A stretch of DNA of 64,000 nucleotides. Source: Thermodesulfomicrobium sp. WS. Its GTDB lineage: Bacteria; Desulfobacterota; Desulfovibrionia; Desulfovibrionales; Desulfomicrobiaceae. The stretch lies in the NCBI RefSeq assembly GCF_027925145.1, contig NZ_AP027130.1:1-64000 (forward strand), written 5' to 3'. Position 1 is the stretch's first letter; the number at the start of each line of letters is the position of its first letter. Shown piece after piece: positions 20,299 to 29,872 of this stretch. The translations under genes were made by a program, and so were the position numbers. The notes under the pieces were generated by a model. The model was given only the letters and a program-made list of their open reading frames with translations, was not told where the DNA came from and did not search any database.

Positions 20299-20388
20299 AT
20301 GAAGCGCGAAAACCTCCTCCAGAACCGCCGGTACTTTTTTTGGTACTTTTATGGAAACAGGGCCTGTGGTCTGGAGGGGCTGTCGTAG
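20299..20388 (+). CDS. Aromatic leader peptide (Phe/Tyr/Trp), 29 aa
   Basis: A 29-codon frame with GAGAGG 6 nt before the ATG. Codons 12-18 (20332-20352) read Tyr-Phe-Phe-Trp-Tyr-Phe-Tyr: seven aromatic codons in a row, covering all three products of the downstream pathway. The frame ends at TAG 20386-20388, just before an intrinsic terminator. This is the layout of a leader peptide whose translation is slowed by shortage of charged tRNA-Phe, tRNA-Tyr or tRNA-Trp. The protein is not expected to have a function of its own. Confidence 0.88.
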   Translation: MKRENLLQNRRYFFWYFYGNRACGLEGLS

Positions 20389-20447
20389 CGTTTACACATC
20401 ACGAACATCCACCGAAGGGCCGCAGGCGCAAAGCCGGCGGCCCTTCG
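20316..20447 (+). promoter_or_regulatory. Attenuator with alternative RNA folds (segments 1-4)
   Basis: Segment 1 (20316-20326) pairs with segment 2 (20368-20377): seven Watson-Crick pairs plus three more across a one-base bulge. Segment 2 (20362-20372) can instead pair with segment 3 (20417-20427): 11 pairs, three of them G-U. Segment 3 (20413-20423) can also pair with segment 4 (20437-20447) as the terminator. Folds 2:3 and 3:4 exclude each other. Stalling at the aromatic codons would mask segment 1, freeing 2 to pair with 3 and allow read-through; finishing at the stop codon would cover segment 2 and allow the terminator. Confidence 0.85.
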
Positions 20448-20455
20448 AGTTTTTC
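20413..20455 (+). terminator. Leader terminator (attenuator stem 3:4)
   Basis: A perfect 11-bp stem, cgaagggccgc (20413-20423) with gcggcccttcg (20437-20447), and a 13-nt loop, followed by a run of T at 20450-20454. It stands between the leader stop codon and the first structural gene, 39 nt before that gene's start. Confidence 0.88.
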
Positions 20456-20493: not shown

Positions 20494-21300
20494 ATGAACC
20501 TGGGAAAAAGCGTTCGTTTGGAACGGATCTTCAACCGCAACACCGGCAAGACCATCATCGTGCCCTTGGACCACGGCACCACCGTGGGCCCCATCGCCGG
20601 CCTGGTAGACATGCGGGACACCATCAACAAGGTGGCTGAAGGCGGAGCCAACGCCGTCCTCATGCACAAGGGCCTGCCCCGCTGTTCCCACCGCGGCAAG
20701 GGCCGGGACGTGGGGCTCATCATCCACCTGTCCGCCAGCACCACCCTCTCGCCCTTCCCCAATGCCAAGACCCTGGTGGCCACCGTGGAAGACGGCCTGC
20801 GCCTGGGGGCGGACGCCGTGTCCGTACACCTCAATCTTGGCGACGAGACCGAGCGCGACATGCTGCGGGACGTGGGCGAAGTGTCCTCCCGGGCCGAATC
20901 CTGGGGCATGCCGCTTCTGGCCATGGTCTACGCCCGCGGCCCCAAAGTGAAATCCGAATGGGACCCGGCTACGGTAGCGCACTGCGCCCGGGTGGCCGAG
21001 GAATTGGGCGCAGATGTCGTGAAAGTCCCGTACACCGGGGATCCGGAGAGCTTTTCCCGGGTCACGGAAGCCTGCTGCATCCCGGTAGTCATCGCCGGCG
21101 GCCCCAAGATGGGCTCGGTGCGCGAAATCCTCCAGACCGCCCACGACAGCCTCAAGGCCGGCGGTTCCGGGCTTTCCATGGGCCGCAACATCTTCCAGGC
21201 CGAAGACCCCACCCGCTTGGTGCAGGCCCTGCACGCCGTAGTGCACCTGGACTACGACGTGGACCAGGCCCTCGCCCTCATGCACACCCCCAGCGCCTAA
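20494..21300 (+). CDS. 2-amino-3,7-dideoxy-D-threo-hept-6-ulosonate (ADH) synthase
   Basis: 268 aa, a class I aldolase of the FbaB/DhnA fold. In the archaeal-type aromatic route this enzyme joins 6-deoxy-5-ketofructose phosphate with aspartate semialdehyde to give ADH, replacing DAHP synthase. PLDHGTT (about residue 24) is the conserved Asp/His active-site segment; the Schiff-base Lys is expected in [10 protein letters not shown] (about residue 174); AGGPKMGSV closes the phosphate site. AAGGAGGAGG precedes the ATG. Its place directly ahead of DHQ synthase II supports the call. Confidence 0.92.
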
Positions 21301-21310
21301 AGGACTCGCC

Positions 21311-22276
21311 ATGCGCATCTACTTCGCTGCCCTGCCGTTTTGCAAAGACGAGGTCACCCTCGCCCTGGAATCCGGGGTGGACGGCGTCATCACCGACGCC
21401 GAGCACGTGCCGGTGGTCCAATCCCTGGCCAAAGGGGCGGTCCTGGACGCCGCAGACCTCCTGTGGGTGACCCTTGCCTCCAAGGACGACGAAGAAACGG
21501 CCGTGACCCAGGCCCTTGCCGGCAAGACCGTGATCCTGCGCGCCGGCTTCGAGATCATCCCGGTGGAGAACATCCTCGCCCAAACCCGAGAGGTGCTGGC
21601 CGAAGTGGAAAACGCCGAGCGGGCGCGGGTGGCGGCCGGCATCTTGGAATGCGGGGTGGCGGGGGTTGTGGTGCGGCCGGAAGCCGCAGCCGAGCTCAAG
21701 ACCATCGTCACCGAGCTGCGCGAGCGCCTGGGACAGGAAACCTTGGTGGCAGCCACGATCACTGCCGTGGAGAACGCCGGCCTCGGGCACCGGGTGTGCG
21801 TGGACACCACCTCGCTCTTCACCACGGGCATGGGGCTTTTGGTGGGGAATTCCAGCGCCTTCACCTTTCTGGTGCATGCCGAGACCGAGGCCAACCCCTA
21901 CGTGGCGCCGCGGCCTTTTCGCATCAATGCCGGCGCGGTGCACAGCTACTGCGTCATGCCCGAAGACCGCACCCGCTACCTGGAAGAACTGCGGCCCGGC
22001 GACGCGCTGATGGTCGTCCGCGCCGACGGCCGCACCCAACGGGCCACCGTCGGCCGGGTGAAGACCGAAATCCGCCCGATGCTGCGCATCGACGCCGAGG
22101 CCAGCGGCCAGCGCGGGACCATCTTCCTGCAAAACGCCGAGACCATCCGCCTCACCCGGCCGGACGGCACCCCGGTGAGCGTGGTGCAGCTTAGCCCCGG
22201 CGACCAGGTACTCTGCCGCCTGGATGCAGCAGGCCGGCATTTCGGCATGCGTATCTCCGAGGACATCCGCGAATGA
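21311..22276 (+). CDS. 3-dehydroquinate synthase II
   Basis: 321 aa, the usual length for the archaeal-type (AroB') enzyme. It converts ADH to 3-dehydroquinate by NAD-dependent oxidative deamination and cyclisation, and is not related to normal AroB. Recognised by ESGVDGVITDAEHV near the N-terminus, ILECGVAGVVV, VCVDTTSLF and the NPYVAPRPFRINAGAVH block (about residue 195). It lies 10 nt after ADH synthase and overlaps pheA by 4 bp. With ADH synthase it provides the entry to the shikimate pathway. Confidence 0.93.
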   Translation: MRIYFAALPFCKDEVTLALESGVDGVITDAEHVPVVQSLAKGAVLDAADLLWVTLASKDDEETAVTQALAGKTVILRAGFEIIPVENILAQTREVLAEVENAERARVAAGILECGVAGVVVRPEAAAELKTIVTELRERLGQETLVAATITAVENAGLGHRVCVDTTSLFTTGMGLLVGNSSAFTFLVHAETEANPYVAPRPFRINAGAVHSYCVMPEDRTRYLEELRPGDALMVVRADGRTQRATVGRVKTEIRPMLRIDAEASGQRGTIFLQNAETIRLTRPDGTPVSVVQLSPGDQVLCRLDAAGRHFGMRISEDIRE

Positions 22277-23355
22277 ACACCGAATCTGCCCTGACCTTGG
22301 AAGAACTGCGCCAGCGCATCGACGCCGTGGACGAGGCCATCGTCGCCCTGCTCCACGAACGGGCGAGCCTCAGCCGCCAGGTGGGCCAGCGCAAGAAAGA
22401 CGGTGTCATCTTCCACCCGTTTCGGGAAAAGGAAGTCCTCGAGCGCCTGCTCTCTCTGCCCGGCGAGCACCTGCCCAAAGAGCATTTGCGCGCCATCTAC
22501 CGCGAGATCCTCTCCTCTTCCCGCAGTCTGCAAGCCCCGCAGACCGTGGCCTATCTCGGTCCCGAAGGGACCTTCTCCCACCGCGCCGCCCTGGAGTACT
22601 TCGGCCACAGCGCCGAACTCCTCCCCCAGCCATCACTGGAGGCGGTATTCCGGGCCGTTGCCACAGACACCTGCCGGCTGGGCATCGTGCCCCTGGAAAA
22701 TTCGCTCCACGGCTCGGTAGCCGAGACGCTGGACCTCTTCCTGCACCACGACACCCCCATCCTGGCCGAGGTCTTCTGCCGGGTTCGGCACGCCCTCCTG
22801 GGGCACCGCATGGAGACGGTGCGCCGGGTGCTCTCCCATCCCCAGGCCCTGGCCCAATGCGCCCAGTGGCTGCGCACCCACCTGCCCCACGCCCAGCTCA
22901 TGGCTGTGGAGAGCACCGCAGCCGCAGCCCGAGCCGTCCACGACGACCCCGAGGCAGCGGCCATCGGCCATCCCGGCTTGGCAGGCCCCACGCTCGCCGT
23001 GCTCGCCACGGACATCCAGGATCTGGCGGACAATTGGACCCGGTTCGCCATCATCGGCCGCGAACCCGGCACTGCAGCCCAGCGGGACAAGACCTCGCTG
23101 CTCCTCACCCTGCCCGACCGGCCAGGCGCCCTGGCCGCGGTGCTGCGCATCCTCGCCGAGGCCGGGCTCAACCTCGCCAAGCTGGAGTCACGGCCGCTGC
23201 GCGCGGAAAAATGGAAGTACATCTTCTTCATGGACGTCGAGTCGGATCTGGGCGCGGAAAAATATGCCCAGACCCTGCGCCAGGTGGCCGAATGTTGCCA
23301 TAGCCTGCGCGTGCTCGGAAGCTACCCTGCCGGCCCCCATCTTGACCCGTTGTGA
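22273..23355 (+). CDS. pheA: Bifunctional chorismate mutase / prephenate dehydratase
   Basis: 360 aa with three domains: AroQ-type chorismate mutase (about 5-90), prephenate dehydratase (about 95-275; YLGPEGTFSHRAAL and GIVPLENSLHG), and a C-terminal ACT regulatory domain (about 283-360; the phenylalanine-site motif ESRPLR is retained). It makes phenylpyruvate for Phe, and Phe feedback is expected through the ACT domain. The start overlaps the preceding stop by ATGA. Confidence 0.96.
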   Translation: MNTESALTLEELRQRIDAVDEAIVALLHERASLSRQVGQRKKDGVIFHPFREKEVLERLLSLPGEHLPKEHLRAIYREILSSSRSLQAPQTVAYLGPEGTFSHRAALEYFGHSAELLPQPSLEAVFRAVATDTCRLGIVPLENSLHGSVAETLDLFLHHDTPILAEVFCRVRHALLGHRMETVRRVLSHPQALAQCAQWLRTHLPHAQLMAVESTAAAARAVHDDPEAAAIGHPGLAGPTLAVLATDIQDLADNWTRFAIIGREPGTAAQRDKTSLLLTLPDRPGALAAVLRILAEAGLNLAKLESRPLRAEKWKYIFFMDVESDLGAEKYAQTLRQVAECCHSLRVLGSYPAGPHLDPL

Positions 23356-23362
23356 GCACCCC

Positions 23363-24685
23363 ATGATCACCATCCCTGCCCCGCCCTCCAAGTCCCAGAC
23401 CCACCGCGCCTTCATCCTGGCGGCCCTGGCCGCAGGCGTCTCGCGGGTGCTGCGGCCCCTGGAGAGCGATGACACCCAGCGTACCCGCGATTGCCTGACC
23501 GCCTTGGGCGCCCGCATCCACCCCATCGAGGGCGGCTACCGCGTGGAAGCCATCCCGCCCGTCCGGCCGGCCCATCCGGTGGAGCTCGCCGTGGGGGAGT
23601 CCGGCACCACCTGCCGCCTCATCACCGCGGTAGCCGCAGCCCTCCCCGGTACGTACCGGATCTCGGGTGCAGGGCGCATGCACCTGCGGCCCATCGCCCC
23701 CCTCACCGACGCCCTGGAACGCCTCGGCGTCGGCGTCCACTTCGAAGGCGCCCCGGGCTGCCCGCCCCTGCGCCTGACTTCGCGCGGGTTTCTCCAAAGC
23801 CACACCGCCCTCGATGTTGCCGAAAGCAGCCAATATCTCTCGGCCCTGCTTCTGGCCGCGCCGCTGAGCCCCCAAGGGCTTACCGTGGATATCACCAGCG
23901 CCGCCATTGCCTCCTGGCCCTACGCCCACCTCACCCTGGAGGCCATGGCCCAGGCTGGGGTCCCGGTCACCATCAGCCAGCGTCAGGGACACGGGTTCGC
24001 GCCGCTTTCGCCCGCAGCAGTCCCCCAAGCACCGGCACAAACCCTGCGCTTTTGCGTGCCCGCCGGCCACAGCTACCGCGCCGGGGATTTTCTCGTGGAA
24101 GGCGATTGGTCCAGCGCCTCGTATTTCCTCGCTGCCGGCATACTCGGGCAGGTACCGGTGGCGGTCACCGGGCTGCGTCCCCAATCCTTGCAGGCGGACC
24201 GGGCGCTTGTGGATATCCTCAATACCATGGGCGGCCGGGTGGAGGTGCGCGAAGATCGCGTCACGGCCTATCCCAGCCGCCTGCACGGTGCGGAGCTGTC
24301 CATGGGCGCGTGCCCGGACATCGTGCCCACCGTGGCCATGCTTGCGGCCGCCGCCCACGGCACGACCCGCATCCGCGACGCCGCGCATCTGCGCCTCAAG
24401 GAAAGCGACCGCATCGCCGCCGTGGTGGACGGACTTACCCGCCTGGGGGTTTGCGCGCAGCCAACACCCGACGGCATGATCATCCATGGGGGGATCCAGA
24501 ATACCTCCCCGGTGGAGCTGGCCACCTTCGGCGACCACCGCCTGGCCATGAGCCTCTGCCTGGCGGAGCTCTTGGGGGCGCGGCCCATGCTCGACACCCC
24601 TGGCTGCGTGGCCAAGTCCTTCCCCCACTTTTGGGAGCTGTGGGAAACGGTGCGCCGCGCCAATGCGGAGGAGCATCGTGCCTAG
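23363..24685 (+). CDS. aroA: 3-phosphoshikimate 1-carboxyvinyltransferase (EPSP synthase)
   Basis: 440 aa. Joins phosphoenolpyruvate to shikimate-3-phosphate to form EPSP, the step before chorismate. PPSKSQTHRAFILAALA (N-terminal Lys-Ser), ESGTTCRL and LRLKESDRI (about residue 344) are signature segments of the family. The ATG at 23363 follows the pheA stop by 7 nt; longer in-frame starts lie inside pheA. Its own 3' end overlaps tyrA by 8 bp. Confidence 0.95.
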   Translation: MITIPAPPSKSQTHRAFILAALAAGVSRVLRPLESDDTQRTRDCLTALGARIHPIEGGYRVEAIPPVRPAHPVELAVGESGTTCRLITAVAAALPGTYRISGAGRMHLRPIAPLTDALERLGVGVHFEGAPGCPPLRLTSRGFLQSHTALDVAESSQYLSALLLAAPLSPQGLTVDITSAAIASWPYAHLTLEAMAQAGVPVTISQRQGHGFAPLSPAAVPQAPAQTLRFCVPAGHSYRAGDFLVEGDWSSASYFLAAGILGQVPVAVTGLRPQSLQADRALVDILNTMGGRVEVREDRVTAYPSRLHGAELSMGACPDIVPTVAMLAAAAHGTTRIRDAAHLRLKESDRIAAVVDGLTRLGVCAQPTPDGMIIHGGIQNTSPVELATFGDHRLAMSLCLAELLGARPMLDTPGCVAKSFPHFWELWETVRRANAEEHRA

Positions 24686-25448
24686 ACGGACTTCCCTCGT
24701 GATCCTCGGCGCCCGCGGCCGCATGGGGCAAAGGCTCTCCCGGGACTTTGCCCAGGCCGGATTCTCCGTGGCCGGATTTGACCTCCCCTTGGACCGCGCG
24801 CGCCTGCATGCCGCCGTGGCCGCAGCCCGCTTCGTCGTCCTTGCCGTGCCCGTGGCTGCCGTGGCCGAGGCCACCGCCCTCGTGGCGCCGGCACTTTCCG
24901 AAGACACCATCCTCATGGACATCACCTCGGTGAAGGTCCTGCCCTTGCAGCAGATGCTCGGCGCCACCACCACCCCGGTGGTGGGGCTCCACCCGCTTTT
25001 TGGCCCCGACACCCAAGCGCCCCTGCGGGTGGCGGTGGTCCCCGGCCGGGGCGACGAGGCCGCCTGCGCAGCCGAAACGCTCCTCAAGGATGCCGGCTAC
25101 GCCCCGTTTCGTACCACGGCCAGCGCCCATGACCAGGCCATGGCCTACATCCAAGGGCTCAATTTTCTGACCACCGTGGCCTATCTCTGCGCCACGCCGG
25201 ACCTCGATCTCACGCCGTACCTCACCCCGTCTTTTGGCCGCCGCATGGAGGCTGCCGCCAAATTGGTGGGCGAGGACGCGGCCCTTTTTTCCACCTTGGT
25301 GGAGGCCAATCCCTTCTCCCTGGAGGCCGCGCGCCGCTTCCGCAGCTACCTCAACCTCACCGCCAGCGGAGACCTGGAACTGGCGACCCGCAAGGCCGAA
25401 GCCATGCTGTGGTGGTGGCGCACGACGACTTCCTCGGGAGGGCCGTAA
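24678..25448 (+). CDS. tyrA: Prephenate dehydrogenase with Trp-rich C-terminal tail
   Basis: 256 aa. Oxidatively decarboxylates prephenate to 4-hydroxyphenylpyruvate for Tyr. The N-terminal Rossmann motif is ILGARGRMG (about residue 9), and VGLHPLFGPD holds the catalytic His region. No ACT domain is present. GTG at 24678 is chosen because GGAGGAG lies 4 nt upstream; an ATG at 24663 is an alternative. The last codons read LWWWRTTTSSGGP and form the leader peptide of the attenuator ahead of trpE, so translation of tyrA's end probably doubles as a Trp sensor. Confidence 0.9.
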   Translation: MPRRTSLVILGARGRMGQRLSRDFAQAGFSVAGFDLPLDRARLHAAVAAARFVVLAVPVAAVAEATALVAPALSEDTILMDITSVKVLPLQQMLGATTTPVVGLHPLFGPDTQAPLRVAVVPGRGDEAACAAETLLKDAGYAPFRTTASAHDQAMAYIQGLNFLTTVAYLCATPDLDLTPYLTPSFGRRMEAAAKLVGEDAALFSTLVEANPFSLEAARRFRSYLNLTASGDLELATRKAEAMLWWWRTTTSSGGP

Positions 25449-25496
25449 GGCTTTGGTCCTGGTTGATACCCATGGCCGGCCGGTTCCTCCCGAGGA
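25404..25496 (+). promoter_or_regulatory. trp attenuator built on the 3' end of tyrA
   Basis: Three consecutive Trp codons (25410-25418) lie 10 codons before the tyrA stop, and an in-frame ATG (25404) could also start a 14-residue peptide. Bases 25431-25441 (tcctcgggagg) are perfectly complementary to 25486-25496 (cctcccgagga), 11 bp, which overlap both arms of the terminator that follows. A ribosome stalled on the Trp codons leaves 25431-25441 free, so the antiterminator forms; a ribosome reaching the stop at 25446 covers it and the terminator wins. The tggtggcgcac string also occurs in the E. coli trpL coding region (WWRTS). Confidence 0.86.
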
Positions 25497-25512
25497 GCCG
25501 GCCTTTGTTTTT
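25478..25512 (+). terminator. trp attenuator terminator between tyrA and trpE
   Basis: An 11-bp stem, ggccggttcct (25478-25488) with aggagccggcc (25493-25503) including one G-U, a 4-nt loop, and tttgttttt directly after. It stands 22 nt before the trpE start, in the only sizeable gap (86 nt) inside the supraoperon. Confidence 0.88.
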
Positions 25513-25534
25513 CCCTTCAACCCTGGAGAATACC

Positions 25535-26956
25535 ATGCCGCATAACCCCCCGCCTCTGCGCCAACGCGGTGCGTGGCTGCCTGCCGACACCCAAACCCCC
25601 ATCTCGCTCTACCTCCACATGGTGCAGCGCAAGCCGGGCATCCTTCTCGAGAGTAGCGAAGTGGACGGGCGGCTCGGCCGCTACAGTCTCATTGCCTGGG
25701 ATTTTCGCCTGGTACTCACCTGTGCCCAGGGCCGGCTGGCGGTGCGCGTCAATGACCCGCTCCTGGGACCCCTGCGAGAGCTCCACGGCCTGCCTTTTGT
25801 GGAGGGTGTACGCGCCGCGCAAGCGGCCATCGCCATCCTGCCGCCCGAAGCAGGGCTGCCGGCCATGACCCGCTCGCTCATCGGCTATTTCGGCTACACC
25901 GCGGCAGGGCTTCTAGAACCCGCCGTGGCGGACATCCTGCCCCCACAGCAGGCCCAGGCCTGCCTCGTGCTGCCGGGCCGCCAGATCCTCTTCGACCATC
26001 TGCGGCACCGCTGCCTCACACTGGCCCTGGAGGAAGATCCCGTGCCTCCCATCTGTGGCCGCCCGCTCACCCCCGAGCCTGCGCGCCTGGGCCCGGTGAC
26101 CACCACCCCGGACCGCGAGCAATTCCTCGCCAGTGTCCGCCGCACCAAGGAGGCCATCCAGGCCGGTGAAGCCATCCAGGTGGTCCTCTCCACCCGCTTC
26201 TCGGCGCCGTTTTCCGGCTCGCCCTTCGAGGTCTACCGCTCCCTGCGCCGGGTCAACCCGTCGCCCTACACCTTCTACATGGCCCTATCCCCGGACTTCA
26301 CCCTGCTCGGGTCCTCGCCCGAACTCTTGGTGCGCTCCCAGAAAGGCCGCCTGGAGCTTCGGCCCATCGCCGGCACCCGGCCGCGCGGGGCCACGGTGAG
26401 CGAGGACGAAGCCTTGGCCCGGGAGCTTCTGGCCGACGAAAAAGAACGCGCCGAACACGTCATGCTGGTGGACCTGGGGCGCAACGACCTCGGACGCATC
26501 GCCGCCCCCGGATCAGTGCAGGTGGACGCCACCATGGAAGTGGAGCGCTTCTCCCACGTCATGCACCTCACCTCCTACCTCTCGGCCACCCTCAAGCCGA
26601 ACCTCACGGCCCTCGACGTCCTCGCCGCAGTGTTCCCCGCCGGCACCGTCTCCGGGGCACCGAAAATCCGGGCCATGCAGCTCATCCACGACGAAGAACC
26701 CCTGCCCCGGGGCCCCTACGCCGGATGTATCGGCTGGATGGGCCTGGGCGACGAAGCCGCAGACATGGATACCGGCATCACCATCCGCTCCCTGTGGGTG
26801 CAGGGCGGCCAGATCCATTGGCAGGCCGGAGCCGGTATCGTCTTCGACTCCGACCCCGAAAACGAATGGCAGGAATGCCACAACAAGGCCCGGGCCATCC
26901 TGACGGCCGTCAACGACACCGGAGGCAGCGATGTTTTTGCTGATCGACAACTTTGA
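25535..26956 (+). CDS. trpE: Anthranilate synthase component I
   Basis: 473 aa. Converts chorismate and ammonia (from TrpG) to anthranilate. The N-terminal LLESSEVDGRLGRYS (about residue 34) carries the LLES-type tryptophan feedback site. The chorismate-binding domain includes SSPELLV, IAGTRPRG, DLGRNDLGR, FPAGTVSGAPK and QAGAGIV. The ATG at 25535 is preceded by GGAG. It is the first gene after the trp attenuator and overlaps trpG by 26 bp. Confidence 0.96.
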   Translation: MPHNPPPLRQRGAWLPADTQTPISLYLHMVQRKPGILLESSEVDGRLGRYSLIAWDFRLVLTCAQGRLAVRVNDPLLGPLRELHGLPFVEGVRAAQAAIAILPPEAGLPAMTRSLIGYFGYTAAGLLEPAVADILPPQQAQACLVLPGRQILFDHLRHRCLTLALEEDPVPPICGRPLTPEPARLGPVTTTPDREQFLASVRRTKEAIQAGEAIQVVLSTRFSAPFSGSPFEVYRSLRRVNPSPYTFYMALSPDFTLLGSSPELLVRSQKGRLELRPIAGTRPRGATVSEDEALARELLADEKERAEHVMLVDLGRNDLGRIAAPGSVQVDATMEVERFSHVMHLTSYLSATLKPNLTALDVLAAVFPAGTVSGAPKIRAMQLIHDEEPLPRGPYAGCIGWMGLGDEAADMDTGITIRSLWVQGGQIHWQAGAGIVFDSDPENEWQECHNKARAILTAVNDTGGSDVFADRQL

Positions 26957-27503
26957 CTCGTTTACCTTCAACCTGGTGCAGGTCTTCCAAGGTTTGGGCG
27001 TCGAACCCTTGGTGCTGCGCAACACAGAAACGCAGCTCCTTGAGCTTGCCACAGATCCACGGCTGAGCGCCGTGGTGCTCTCCCCCGGTCCCAGCCACCC
27101 GGGCAACACGGGCCTGTGTCTCCGCTTTCTGGATCTGGTGCCCCAGCAGGTGCCCATCCTCGGGGTCTGCCTCGGGCACCAGACCCTGGCCCATCACGCC
27201 GGCGCCACCGTGGGCAGGGCCCGGCGCATCATGCACGGCAAGACTTCCCTCGTGACCCACGACGGCACCGGGCTCTTTGCGGGCCTGCCCAACCCCGTGG
27301 AAGTGGGCCGCTACCACTCCCTGGCCATCCTCGAGGACCAACCGCTCCCCTTTACCGTCACCGCCCGGGCCGATGACGGAGAAATCATGGGCATCGCCTT
27401 TGCCGACCGCCCCTGGGTGGGGGTCCAGTTCCATCCCGAATCCGTCCTCACCCCCCATGGCCCGAAACTTCTTGCCAACTTCCTTGCCATGATCCGGAGG
27501 TAA
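26931..27503 (+). CDS. trpG: Anthranilate synthase component II (glutamine amidotransferase)
   Basis: 190 aa class I glutamine amidotransferase that supplies ammonia to TrpE. IDNFDSFTFNLVQ opens the protein; the nucleophile Cys is in GVCLGHQ (about residue 79); the His-Glu pair is in GVQFHPESVLT (about residue 170). GGAGG lies 5 nt before the start, inside the trpE 3' end, so the two subunits are translationally coupled. Confidence 0.96.
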   Translation: MFLLIDNFDSFTFNLVQVFQGLGVEPLVLRNTETQLLELATDPRLSAVVLSPGPSHPGNTGLCLRFLDLVPQQVPILGVCLGHQTLAHHAGATVGRARRIMHGKTSLVTHDGTGLFAGLPNPVEVGRYHSLAILEDQPLPFTVTARADDGEIMGIAFADRPWVGVQFHPESVLTPHGPKLLANFLAMIRR

Positions 27504-27505
27504 CC

Positions 27506-28498
27506 ATGTCCATCGCCCCCATTCTCGAAACCCTGCTTGCCGGCCACGACCTGGACTTTGCCACCGCCTCGGCCGTGTTCGCCGATCTCTTGGACGGACG
27601 CCTGTCCGAAGGCCAGGCCGCGGCCCTGCTCATCGCCCTGCGCAGCAAAGGCGAATCCGCCACCGAGCTGGCCGCTGCCGCCACCGCCGCCTTGGCGCGC
27701 GCCCACCTCGTGGAGGGGCTTCCCTCCCCGCGCATGGATACCTGCGGCACCGGCGGCGACGGTCGTCAGAGTTTCAATTGCTCCACCGCCGTGGCCCTGT
27801 TTCTCGCCGACATGGGCTACACCATAGTGAAACACGGCAACCGGGCGGTATCCAGCTCCTGCGGCAGCGCCGACATCGTCGAGGCCCTGGGCCTTCCCAT
27901 GGCGCAGGATCCACATGAGGTCGCCGCCGCTGCCCGCACCGATCGCTTCGTGTTCCTCTTTGCCCCGCATTTCCATCCCGCCTTTGCCCGCATCGCCCCC
28001 TTGCGCCGCGCCCTCGGGGTGCGCACCCTTTTCAATCTCTTAGGACCACTCATCAACCCCGCACGGCCCACACACCAGATCCTGGGGGTCCCAGAAGAAC
28101 GTCTGGTCCCCATCATGAGCGCCGCCCTGGCCCAGATCGGCGTCCAGCACGCCGCCGTGGTGCACGGCGCCGGAGGCTTTGACGAACTGACCCCCTGCGG
28201 TCCCGGTCATGTGGCCTGGGTGCAGAACGGCGCCGTGCGGGAGGAAGTCATCCATCCAAAATCCCTGGGCTTTGAGTATTTTCCTCCCACAAGCCTCTCC
28301 TGCACAGGCAAAGAAGACGCCCTCGATCTCCAACGACGCGTGCTCACTGGCCAAGGTCCCGCACCATTGCAGGCCATGGTGGCCCTCAACTTGGGGCTTG
28401 CCCTGCATCTGCTCGAAGACCTGCCCCTCGCCGAAGCCATGGCCAAGGCCCGGACCAAGGTGTCTCAAGGGATCTTACGGGAGGTGCCCCATGCTTGA
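27506..28498 (+). CDS. trpD: Anthranilate phosphoribosyltransferase
   Basis: 330 aa. Transfers phosphoribose from PRPP to anthranilate. The PRPP-binding loop is DTCGTGGDG (about residue 78); KHGNRAVSSSCGSAD (about residue 109) and the NLLGPLINP segment are family signatures. It starts 2 nt after trpG and overlaps trpC by 8 bp. It is separate from trpG, unlike the fused form in enteric bacteria. Confidence 0.96.
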   Translation: MSIAPILETLLAGHDLDFATASAVFADLLDGRLSEGQAAALLIALRSKGESATELAAAATAALARAHLVEGLPSPRMDTCGTGGDGRQSFNCSTAVALFLADMGYTIVKHGNRAVSSSCGSADIVEALGLPMAQDPHEVAAAARTDRFVFLFAPHFHPAFARIAPLRRALGVRTLFNLLGPLINPARPTHQILGVPEERLVPIMSAALAQIGVQHAAVVHGAGGFDELTPCGPGHVAWVQNGAVREEVIHPKSLGFEYFPPTSLSCTGKEDALDLQRRVLTGQGPAPLQAMVALNLGLALHLLEDLPLAEAMAKARTKVSQGILREVPHA

Positions 28499-29267
28499 GC
28501 GCTTCCGTGCGGCCAAACAGGCGGAAATCGCTGCCCTGCATGCCGCCGAGGCCGCCGGCACCCTTGCCCCCCTCTGGACCGCAGCACGCCCCAGTCTTGC
28601 CGAAGCCATCGCCACGGCCCGCGCCACGGGACGCAGTGCCATCATCGCCGAATACAAGCGCGCCTCACCCAGCCAGGGCTGCATCCGCACGGACCTCACC
28701 GCCCGCGAGGTCTGCAGCCAGTACGCCGGCGCCGGGGCCTGCGCCCTCTCCATCCTCACGGAAGAGCGCTTCTTCCAGGGAAGCCTCGCCTTCCTCCACG
28801 ACGCCGCGCCCTTGGGGCTGCCCATGCTGCGCAAGGACTTCATCCTCGACCCCCTGCAGGTGCGCGCCACCGCCGCCACCCCGGCCAGCGCCGTGCTCCT
28901 CGTGACGCGCATGCTCTCGGACGCCGCCCTGGCGGCCTGCCTTGAGATTGCCCAAGAAACCGGGCTCGAGGCCGTGGTGGAGGTCTTCGACCACGCCGAC
29001 CTTCACCGGACGCTCGCGGCCCAGGCGCGCATCATCCAGGTCAACGCCCGGGATCTGGACACCCTGGCCGTGGACCTAGGTCGCAGCCGCGCCCTGGTGC
29101 GGGAAAAATCCCCGGGACAGATTTGGATCGCCGCCAGCGGCATCACCTGCCGGGAAGACGTGCTGCGCCTGGAGGATGCGGGTTTCGACGCCGCCCTGGT
29201 GGGCACGAGTCTCATGCGCGCCCCTGACCCTGGGGCGGCCCTGCGCCAACTGCTGGGGGAGCCATGA
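28491..29267 (+). CDS. trpC: Indole-3-glycerol phosphate synthase
   Basis: 258 aa TIM-barrel enzyme. [13 protein letters not shown] (about residue 48) carries the catalytic Lys, LRKDFILD the next Lys, VNARDLDTL the Asn segment, and [10 protein letters not shown] ends the phosphate site. The ATG at 28491 overlaps the trpD stop; longer in-frame extensions fall within trpD. Not fused to trpF. Confidence 0.95.
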
Positions 29268-29872
29268 TCGTCAAAGTCTGTGGACTTGCCCGCGAGGAAG
29301 ATGTGCGCCTGTGCCAGACACTTGGGGTGGACATGGTGGGATTTATCTTCCATCCCCAAAGCCCGCGGCAGGTGGACCCGGCCTGGGTGGGGAGCATTGC
29401 CACCTCCTGCCGCAAGGTCGGGGTGTTCACGGTGCAGGATACCGCCACCATCGCCCGCATGGCGGCCGAGGCGCGGCTCGATATGCTCCAGCTCCATGGC
29501 CCATACCCGCCTGCGAGTGGAGACGCCCTCGGCCCGGAGCGCGTCATCGCCGTGCTCTGGCCGGAAGGCTTTTCCACGCCGCAGGCATTCCTCGGCGCGG
29601 CCGCCTCCTGGCAGGGGCATTGCCGCTTCCTGCTCCTCGATGCCGGGCGCTGCGGCGGTGGCCACGGCCGGGCCTTGCGGCTCCCCTGGACGCTCCCCGC
29701 CCTTCCTCTCCCCTGGATCCTGGCCGGCGGCCTTGGCCCGGAGACCATCGCCGCCGCGTGCGCCCTCCGCCCAGACGGGGTGGACCTCAACTCCGGGGTG
29801 GAGGCCCGTCCCGGCGTCAAGGACGCCGCCAAACTCCGTCAGACCCTCAACCACCTGCGAGGTTGTCCATGA
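29264..29872 (+). CDS. trpF: Phosphoribosylanthranilate isomerase
   Basis: 202 aa TIM-barrel isomerase. The N-terminal [12 protein letters not shown] carries the catalytic Cys; [12 protein letters not shown] follows; the second-half Asp is in [13 protein letters not shown] (about residue 127), and LAGGLGPE and DLNSGVE close the phosphate site. Overlaps both neighbours by ATGA. Confidence 0.95.

Follow-up and report, generated by a model that had tools for sequence, protein, structure and literature searches.

In the aromatic operon of Thermodesulfomicrobium sp. WS, the 3' end of tyrA most likely serves as the leader reading frame of a ribosome-mediated transcription attenuator that would respond to tryptophan alone and gate trpEGDCFBA from within the 12 genes; the probability of this reading is put at about 0.9. 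The window is a stretch of 64,000 nucleotides from a genome that forms a single 2.36-Mb contig and whose nearest named relative is an uncultured Desulfomicrobiaceae bacterium (L338). The initial annotation of the window had proposed a second, Trp-only attenuator between tyrA and trpE, and this proposal is now supported by order-wide conservation, geometry and covariation. The support consists of the sequence itself, its conservation, its spacing, the covariation of both helices, the loss of the element together with trpE and a natural stub. Four of the properties expected of an attenuator of the trpL type are present, namely a run of Trp codons in frame, a terminator before trpE, a covarying 2:3 helix and a suitable ribosome geometry.

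The proposed sensor is charged tRNA-Trp. When tryptophan is ample, the ribosome would pass the WWW codons, reach the tyrA stop codon and cover segment 2, so that the 3:4 terminator could form and transcription would stop before trpE, while tyrA and the earlier genes would still be made. When tryptophan is short, the ribosome would stall on the WWW codons, about 60 nt upstream of the terminator, leaving segment 2 (which begins 13-17 nt onward) free to pair as 2:3 with the 5' arm and loop of the terminator, and the polymerase would read into the trp genes. Both the stalling and the Trp-dependent readthrough are deduced from the arrangement of the sequence.

Organization of the operon and of the tyrA 3' end

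The gene order is ADH synthase, DHQ synthase II, chorismate mutase/prephenate dehydratase, EPSP synthase, tyrA, trpE, trpG, trpD, trpC, trpF, trpB and trpA, with tyrA in fifth place (Table 1). The leader of the first attenuator, at the 5' end of this supraoperon, has homologues across the order. Its aromatic stretch contains Trp codons at all 38 named loci that have trpE after tyrA, versus 5 of 12 that trp has left (Fisher p 8e-6, uncorrected for kinship). Our reading is that the first attenuator would sense Phe, Tyr and Trp for the whole operon, and that the tyrA tail would read Trp alone for the trp half.

Table 1. Positions in the window of the operon genes and of the elements of the two attenuators
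Feature	Position	Strand	Remarks
First leader ORF of the supraoperon	20299-20388	+	MKRENLLQNRRYFFWYFYGNRACGLEGLS, then stop
Terminator of the first attenuator, plus T-run	20413-20447	+	strong; whole element 20299-20454
Upstream operon genes (ADH synthase, DHQ synthase II, chorismate mutase/prephenate dehydratase, EPSP synthase)	20494-24685	+	
tyrA (prephenate dehydrogenase)	24663-25448	+	NCBIfam/Pfam prephenate dehydrogenase; start codon uncertain, conserved homology from about 24690
Putative control codons TGG TGG TGG (W1-W3)	25410-25418	+	direct read
Arg codon right after the Trp run (R4)	25419-25421	+	
Segment 2, predicted antiterminator core CGGGAGG	25435-25441	+	within the tyrA frame; starts 16 nt past the last Trp codon
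tyrA stop codon TAA	25446-25448	+	direct read; position at which a ribosome would cover segment 2
Intrinsic terminator hairpin (segments 3 and 4)	25478-25503	+	11 pairs, 8 of them GC; equivalent hairpin in 123 genomes; covariation
Segment 3 core CCTCCCG	25486-25492	+	loop and 5' arm of the terminator; predicted partner of segment 2
Terminator T-run TTTGTTTTT	25504-25512	+	
trpE	25535-26956	+	first gene under the putative internal attenuator
trpG	26931-27503	+	
trpD	27506-28498	+	
trpC	about 28488-29267	+	
trpF	29264-29872	+	trpB and trpA come next

The last codons of tyrA encode LWWWRTTTSSGGP and are followed by TAA, and the C-terminus of the protein reads AEAMLWWWRTTTSSGGP; the terminal Trp codons attributed to the gene in the initial annotation were confirmed base for base. 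The best structural match of TyrA in a fold search is the H. influenzae enzyme (2pv7, Z 23.5 over 251 residues). The PDB rows of that search, judged by their ranges, reach up to residue 252 (2pv7), and the sequence profile against the PDB ends at about residue 220. The predicted structure of TyrA places the WWW close to the end of its last helix (229-246), with low confidence for the final residues beyond it.

The hairpin before trpE outranks every other terminator-like site in 24600-25600 (shuffles average 0.6 sites there), and the strong terminator with T-run that had been reported there is thus confirmed. Chance is excluded by the conservation of the element across genomes, not by the sequence of the single window. 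The terminator lies 29 nt past the tyrA stop codon (mean 35 nt across the set), and the ATG of trpE, at 25535, is 31 nt past its stem. An 11-bp perfect complement had also been noted, and on direct reading 25431-25441 (tcctcgggagg) is the exact reverse complement of 25486-25496 (cctcccgagga). An Rfam search of 25350-25560 with E values up to 10 returned no trp leader family, and the tyrA-trpE gap gave no Rfam match to a T-box or known riboswitch.

Conservation across the Desulfovibrionales

A search for TyrA in 348 genomes of this order of sulfate-reducing bacteria gave a match in 308, and in about 250 of these the tyrA 3' end and the DNA downstream were read and classed. This comparison of TyrA C-termini and tyrA-trpE gaps, one of the checks suggested at the outset, found WWW together with an intrinsic terminator in 123 genomes of 25 genera, representing all six families sampled (f1-f6), each with trpE after tyrA and a gap of at least 20 nt. 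In these genomes tyrA ends in WWW(R) and the terminator stands about 60 nt past the Trp codons. The fused form is found in Desulfomicrobium, Desulfonatronum, Desulfonatronovibrio, Desulfonatronospira, Desulfonauticus, Halodesulfovibrio, Nitratidesulfovibrio, Humidesulfovibrio and Pseudodesulfovibrio, among others.

The remaining adjacent pairs with a gap of at least 20 nt comprise nine with WWW and no terminator, eight with WW and no terminator, and three with WW and a terminator, absence being defined by the detection rule used and the counts being of related genomes. In one of the last three (L100) the terminator lies 80 nt past the stop codon and is seemingly a different element. Where tyrA and trpE overlap (Solidesulfovibrio and others, gap -10 or -26), a terminator was detected in 0 of 21 genomes. 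Among adjacent pairs WWW is associated with the terminator at a Fisher p of about 1e-6, computed over genomes that are not independent.

Two further observations concern the genomes with little or no gap. In Solidesulfovibrio-type genomes (L040, L048, L053, L115, L116, L118 and others) tyrA and trpE overlap by 10 nt, and both the terminator and W1 have been lost. In L036, L061 and L068 the WWW is retained though tyrA abuts or overlaps trpE, and no terminator was detected.

Pairing, covariation and ribosome position

Segment 2 starts on average 17.4 nt (sd 3.5) past the last Trp codon, most often at 13-17 nt, and at least 12 nt past it in 122 of the 123 genomes. By distance, a ribosome at the stop codon would cover at least half of segment 2 in 120 of 123, and the RNA that it leaves free folds into the terminator in all 123. 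With a ribosome on the WWW codons instead, the nascent RNA that stays free folds as 2:3 in 123 of 123, a count that has a high background and is given no weight. The geometry originally proposed, in which a ribosome stalled on WWW frees the antiterminator and one at the stop codon covers it, is consistent with the distances and foldings. Counts of minimum-free-energy structures were rejected as proof of the 2:3 pairing, shuffled spacers giving at least 5 pairs in 89%.

Duplex energies compared with those of shuffled and swapped spacers were used in their place. Across the 123 genomes the spacer pairs with the terminator 5' arm and loop at a mean of -23.1 kcal/mol over genera, versus -14.1 for shuffled spacers and -17.2 for spacers swapped in from other genera. 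The native pairing is stronger than the shuffled one in 25 of 25 genera (Wilcoxon 6e-8) and stronger than the swapped one in 24 of 25 (1.8e-7).

In an alignment of 31 sequences, 93.9% of the cells of the 2:3 helix are paired, compared with at most 50% when the register is slid by 1-3 columns, and both sides have changed in 5 of its 10 pairs, a result reached in 0 of 500 shuffles. The 3:4 helix in the same alignment is 95.3% paired, with four pairs changed on both sides. Examples of matched changes are GGGGTGCGGC/GCCGCACCCC, GGGACGCGGC/GCCGCGTCCC and TGGGAGGATG/CATCCTCCCA. The 11-bp helix, for which a lack of covariation would have told against the attenuator, thus does covary, but its conserved register is confined to the core, CGGGAGG (25435-25441) with CCTCCCG (25486-25492); the flanking TCCTC/GAGGA part is not kept, even in the sister species L002.

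The distance from the Trp codons to the terminator is 57 and 58 nt in the sister pair L032/L141 despite a moved stop codon. A constant distance of this kind was dropped as main evidence, the correlation over all genomes being just -0.37.

Natural variants of the element

A Desulfomicrobium-type metagenome-assembled genome (G011), the one MAG from which such a stub is known, has an intact tyrA with no trpE behind it, and its trpE lies on another contig. There the first attenuator (leader ...SSLYFFWCFY...) is directly succeeded by a 66-codon tyrA remnant, a terminator and trpE (L420 1850-2420), which puts two attenuators in tandem, the intervening operon genes having been deleted. The remnant begins at an ATG and has kept the WWW, and its segment 2 is GGGGGAACC opposite GGTTCCTC. 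It retains 41-43 of 66 residues, versus 56-62 between intact copies. That a decayed stub retains both WWW and terminator suggests that the tail has been kept for regulation without the enzyme.

In L015 and L016, where trpE is no longer the neighbour of tyrA, TyrA ends in ARLWWQETRGKKEKK with no terminator behind it, and in L017 GG has become GE. In genomes whose trpE has moved away from tyrA, a free-standing trpL with WWWR usually takes over. Relatives with a trpL separate from tyrA, another of the checks suggested initially, were found in Desulfovibrio sensu stricto, in Mailhella-type genomes and in outgroups. Within the order these free leaders stand before a trpE located elsewhere (for example MNVFSNTISNSFKGWWWRIQLRGGDVRA) and form a family with WWWR...RGGxVR (L285-L289, L311, L318 and L320-L330, from Desulfovibrio sensu stricto, Mailhella and Bilophila-like genomes); that of L289 had no Rfam trp leader match at E up to 10. 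They resemble the tyrA tail in the WWWR, the RGGxVR, the matching segments and the target, trpE, but differ in having their own start codon and promoter-like sequence, apart from tyrA. In a quick TrpE tree most of the TrpEs behind them group on a branch of their own, which also holds two genomes from outside the order, so that operon replacement may have taken place there; the cases of G011, G018 and G226 are separate.

As a side observation from the same tree, the TrpEs of L284 and L290 (f87, of the same phylum and another order) fall inside the Desulfovibrionales, which suggests transfer of the trp operon.

Probable enzyme and sensor parts of the TyrA tail

The residues of the tail do not behave alike. 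W1 is Trp in 124 of 125 genomes with the attenuator versus 70 of 122 without, and Arg follows the Trp run in 113 of 125 with it and in a minority without. Nearly every TyrA of the order retains W2, attenuator or not, and position 3 is aromatic or Leu; outgroup TyrAs have xWFG or similar (AEWFG, SAWFG) aligned with W2W3. Since W2 is kept and position 3 stays aromatic or Leu regardless, both aligning with the WF of outgroups, and W1 and Arg go with the attenuator, W2W3 look like part of the enzyme, and W1, the Arg, the tail and segment 2 look like regulation. The initial annotation had held that conservation of the tail where TyrA has no trpE behind it would refute its proposal; this is in part the case for W2W3, whereas W1, R4, the stop position, segment 2 and the terminator are not conserved in this way. 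The correlation of W1 with the attenuator is clustered phylogenetically, and a phylogenetic pairs test gave 1-4 pairs in favour and 0 against (p at least 0.125), too few pairs to decide.

Alternative explanations

The hairpin could instead be an ordinary leaky terminator of an aro-tyrA unit, with trp transcribed from its own promoter and the WWW a feature of the protein only. The near-universal retention of W2 and an aromatic position 3, with the aligned WF of outgroups, agrees with this, as does the gap of 100-300 nt between terminator and trpE in some genomes, where a promoter could fit. Many TyrAs without a trpE neighbour also keep the WWW, which, with the nine adjacent genomes that have WWW and no detected terminator, counts against the attenuator. 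In 55 of the 123 genomes, however, the window included, the terminator is at most 40 nt from trpE, too little for a promoter and a ribosome site, so that transcription must pass the terminator in these 55; no promoter-like (sigma-70-like) site was found in 24600-25600 of the window. Neither would a plain terminator need a covarying upstream segment at a fixed distance from Trp codons, and the G011 stub keeps WWW and terminator without the enzyme. This explanation is accordingly considered very improbable.

Coupling of the rph-pyrE type, in which a ribosome at the tyrA stop codon close behind RNA polymerase would block the terminator with no codon-specific sensing, has a precedent in E. coli rph-pyrE, whose leader is likewise the end of an enzyme gene (PMC2784333), and a ribosome at a stop codon a few bp upstream does repress a terminator (PMC4824070). 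In E. coli a stop codon 28 bp upstream of the terminator left about 90% termination (PMC4824070), and the 29 nt in the window and mean of 35 nt across the set exceed the few nucleotides that this threshold allows. Such coupling would moreover leave the Trp codons and segment 2 unexplained, and there is scarcely any probability left for it.

Origin of the leader

The initial annotation had suggested that an ancestral free trpL became fused in frame to tyrA, and the evidence on this is divided, leaving the suggestion at slightly below even odds. Outgroups within the phylum (L293, L296, L304, L307) have free trpLs with WWW(R) before trpE. In G500, whose order is aroK-aroC-tyrA-trpL-terminator-trpE, a trpL (MMIFVSGRNSWWWRGLREGFVRRR) lies between tyrA and trpE, in the frame of tyrA and about 20 codons past its stop codon; this arrangement is the starting point that a fusion would need. 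Arg follows the Trp run both in free trpLs and in the 113 of 125 tails, and the further helix that outgroup TyrAs often have past WF is absent from the order. Against a fusion, W2W3 align with the enzyme's own WF pair, so that part of the run at least is native, and W2 is kept without the attenuator; G500 is also a single case, whose in-frame position has a chance of one in three. Both a fusion and a native WF might be accommodated if a deletion had linked the WF of tyrA to the terminal part of a trpL.

Alternatively, and more tentatively, the enzyme's native aromatic pair W2W3 may have been made into a sensor by the addition of W1, Arg, a shortened tail and segment 2, one stretch being selected both as helix and as control codons, with a consequence for TyrA itself that is part of the same tentative proposal. 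If this co-option took place, a ribosome stalled on WWW could not finish TyrA, and a shortage of Trp would both raise trp expression and cut the amount of complete TyrA, steering chorismate from Tyr to Trp.

Comparison with known systems

The element resembles E. coli trpL in its tandem Trp codons followed by Arg, its 2:3/3:4 alternatives, its terminator before trpE and its similar spacing. It differs in lacking a separate 5' leader gene, since its Trp codons belong to the 3' end of an enzyme gene of 260 codons that lies within an operon. Because the frame is that of tyrA itself, the fifth gene, and there is no short dedicated leader ORF, the element is classed as a variant that would work like trpL and not as a trpL.

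It shares with E. coli rph-pyrE the use of the 3' end of an enzyme gene as a translated leader for the attenuator of the next gene (PMC2784333). The rph-pyrE system appears to be the nearest precedent for such a leader. The signal in rph-pyrE is the pyrimidine level, acting through coupling of RNA polymerase and ribosome near the stop codon, whereas tyrA-trpE has amino-acid-specific codons, an antiterminator segment and a stop codon 29 nt away.

The D. vulgaris supraoperon aroA'>aroB'>aroQ-pheA>aroF>tyrA>[trp] described by Song et al. 2005 (PMC1173090) is the same as the one found here. Table 7 of that paper assigns the whole gene order a putative attenuator, associated with tyrA, and the portions of the paper drawn on here make no mention of an internal attenuator or of the tyrA tail. 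No report of a tyrA-tail attenuator was found in open-access full texts.

Significance

The tyrA tail would show that an amino-acid attenuator can dispense with a leader gene of its own and use the terminal part of a functional enzyme as its gauge. It would also let one operon hold two amino-acid sensors and be switched in halves, by all three aromatic amino acids at the front and by Trp alone in the middle. Searches confined to short ORFs and 5' leaders (e.g. PMC2965389) would miss a sensor of this kind, and more may exist in other operons. Within the Desulfovibrionales, the repeated losses of the element, the one stub and the replacements by free trpLs provide a good record of the gain and loss of leader peptides.
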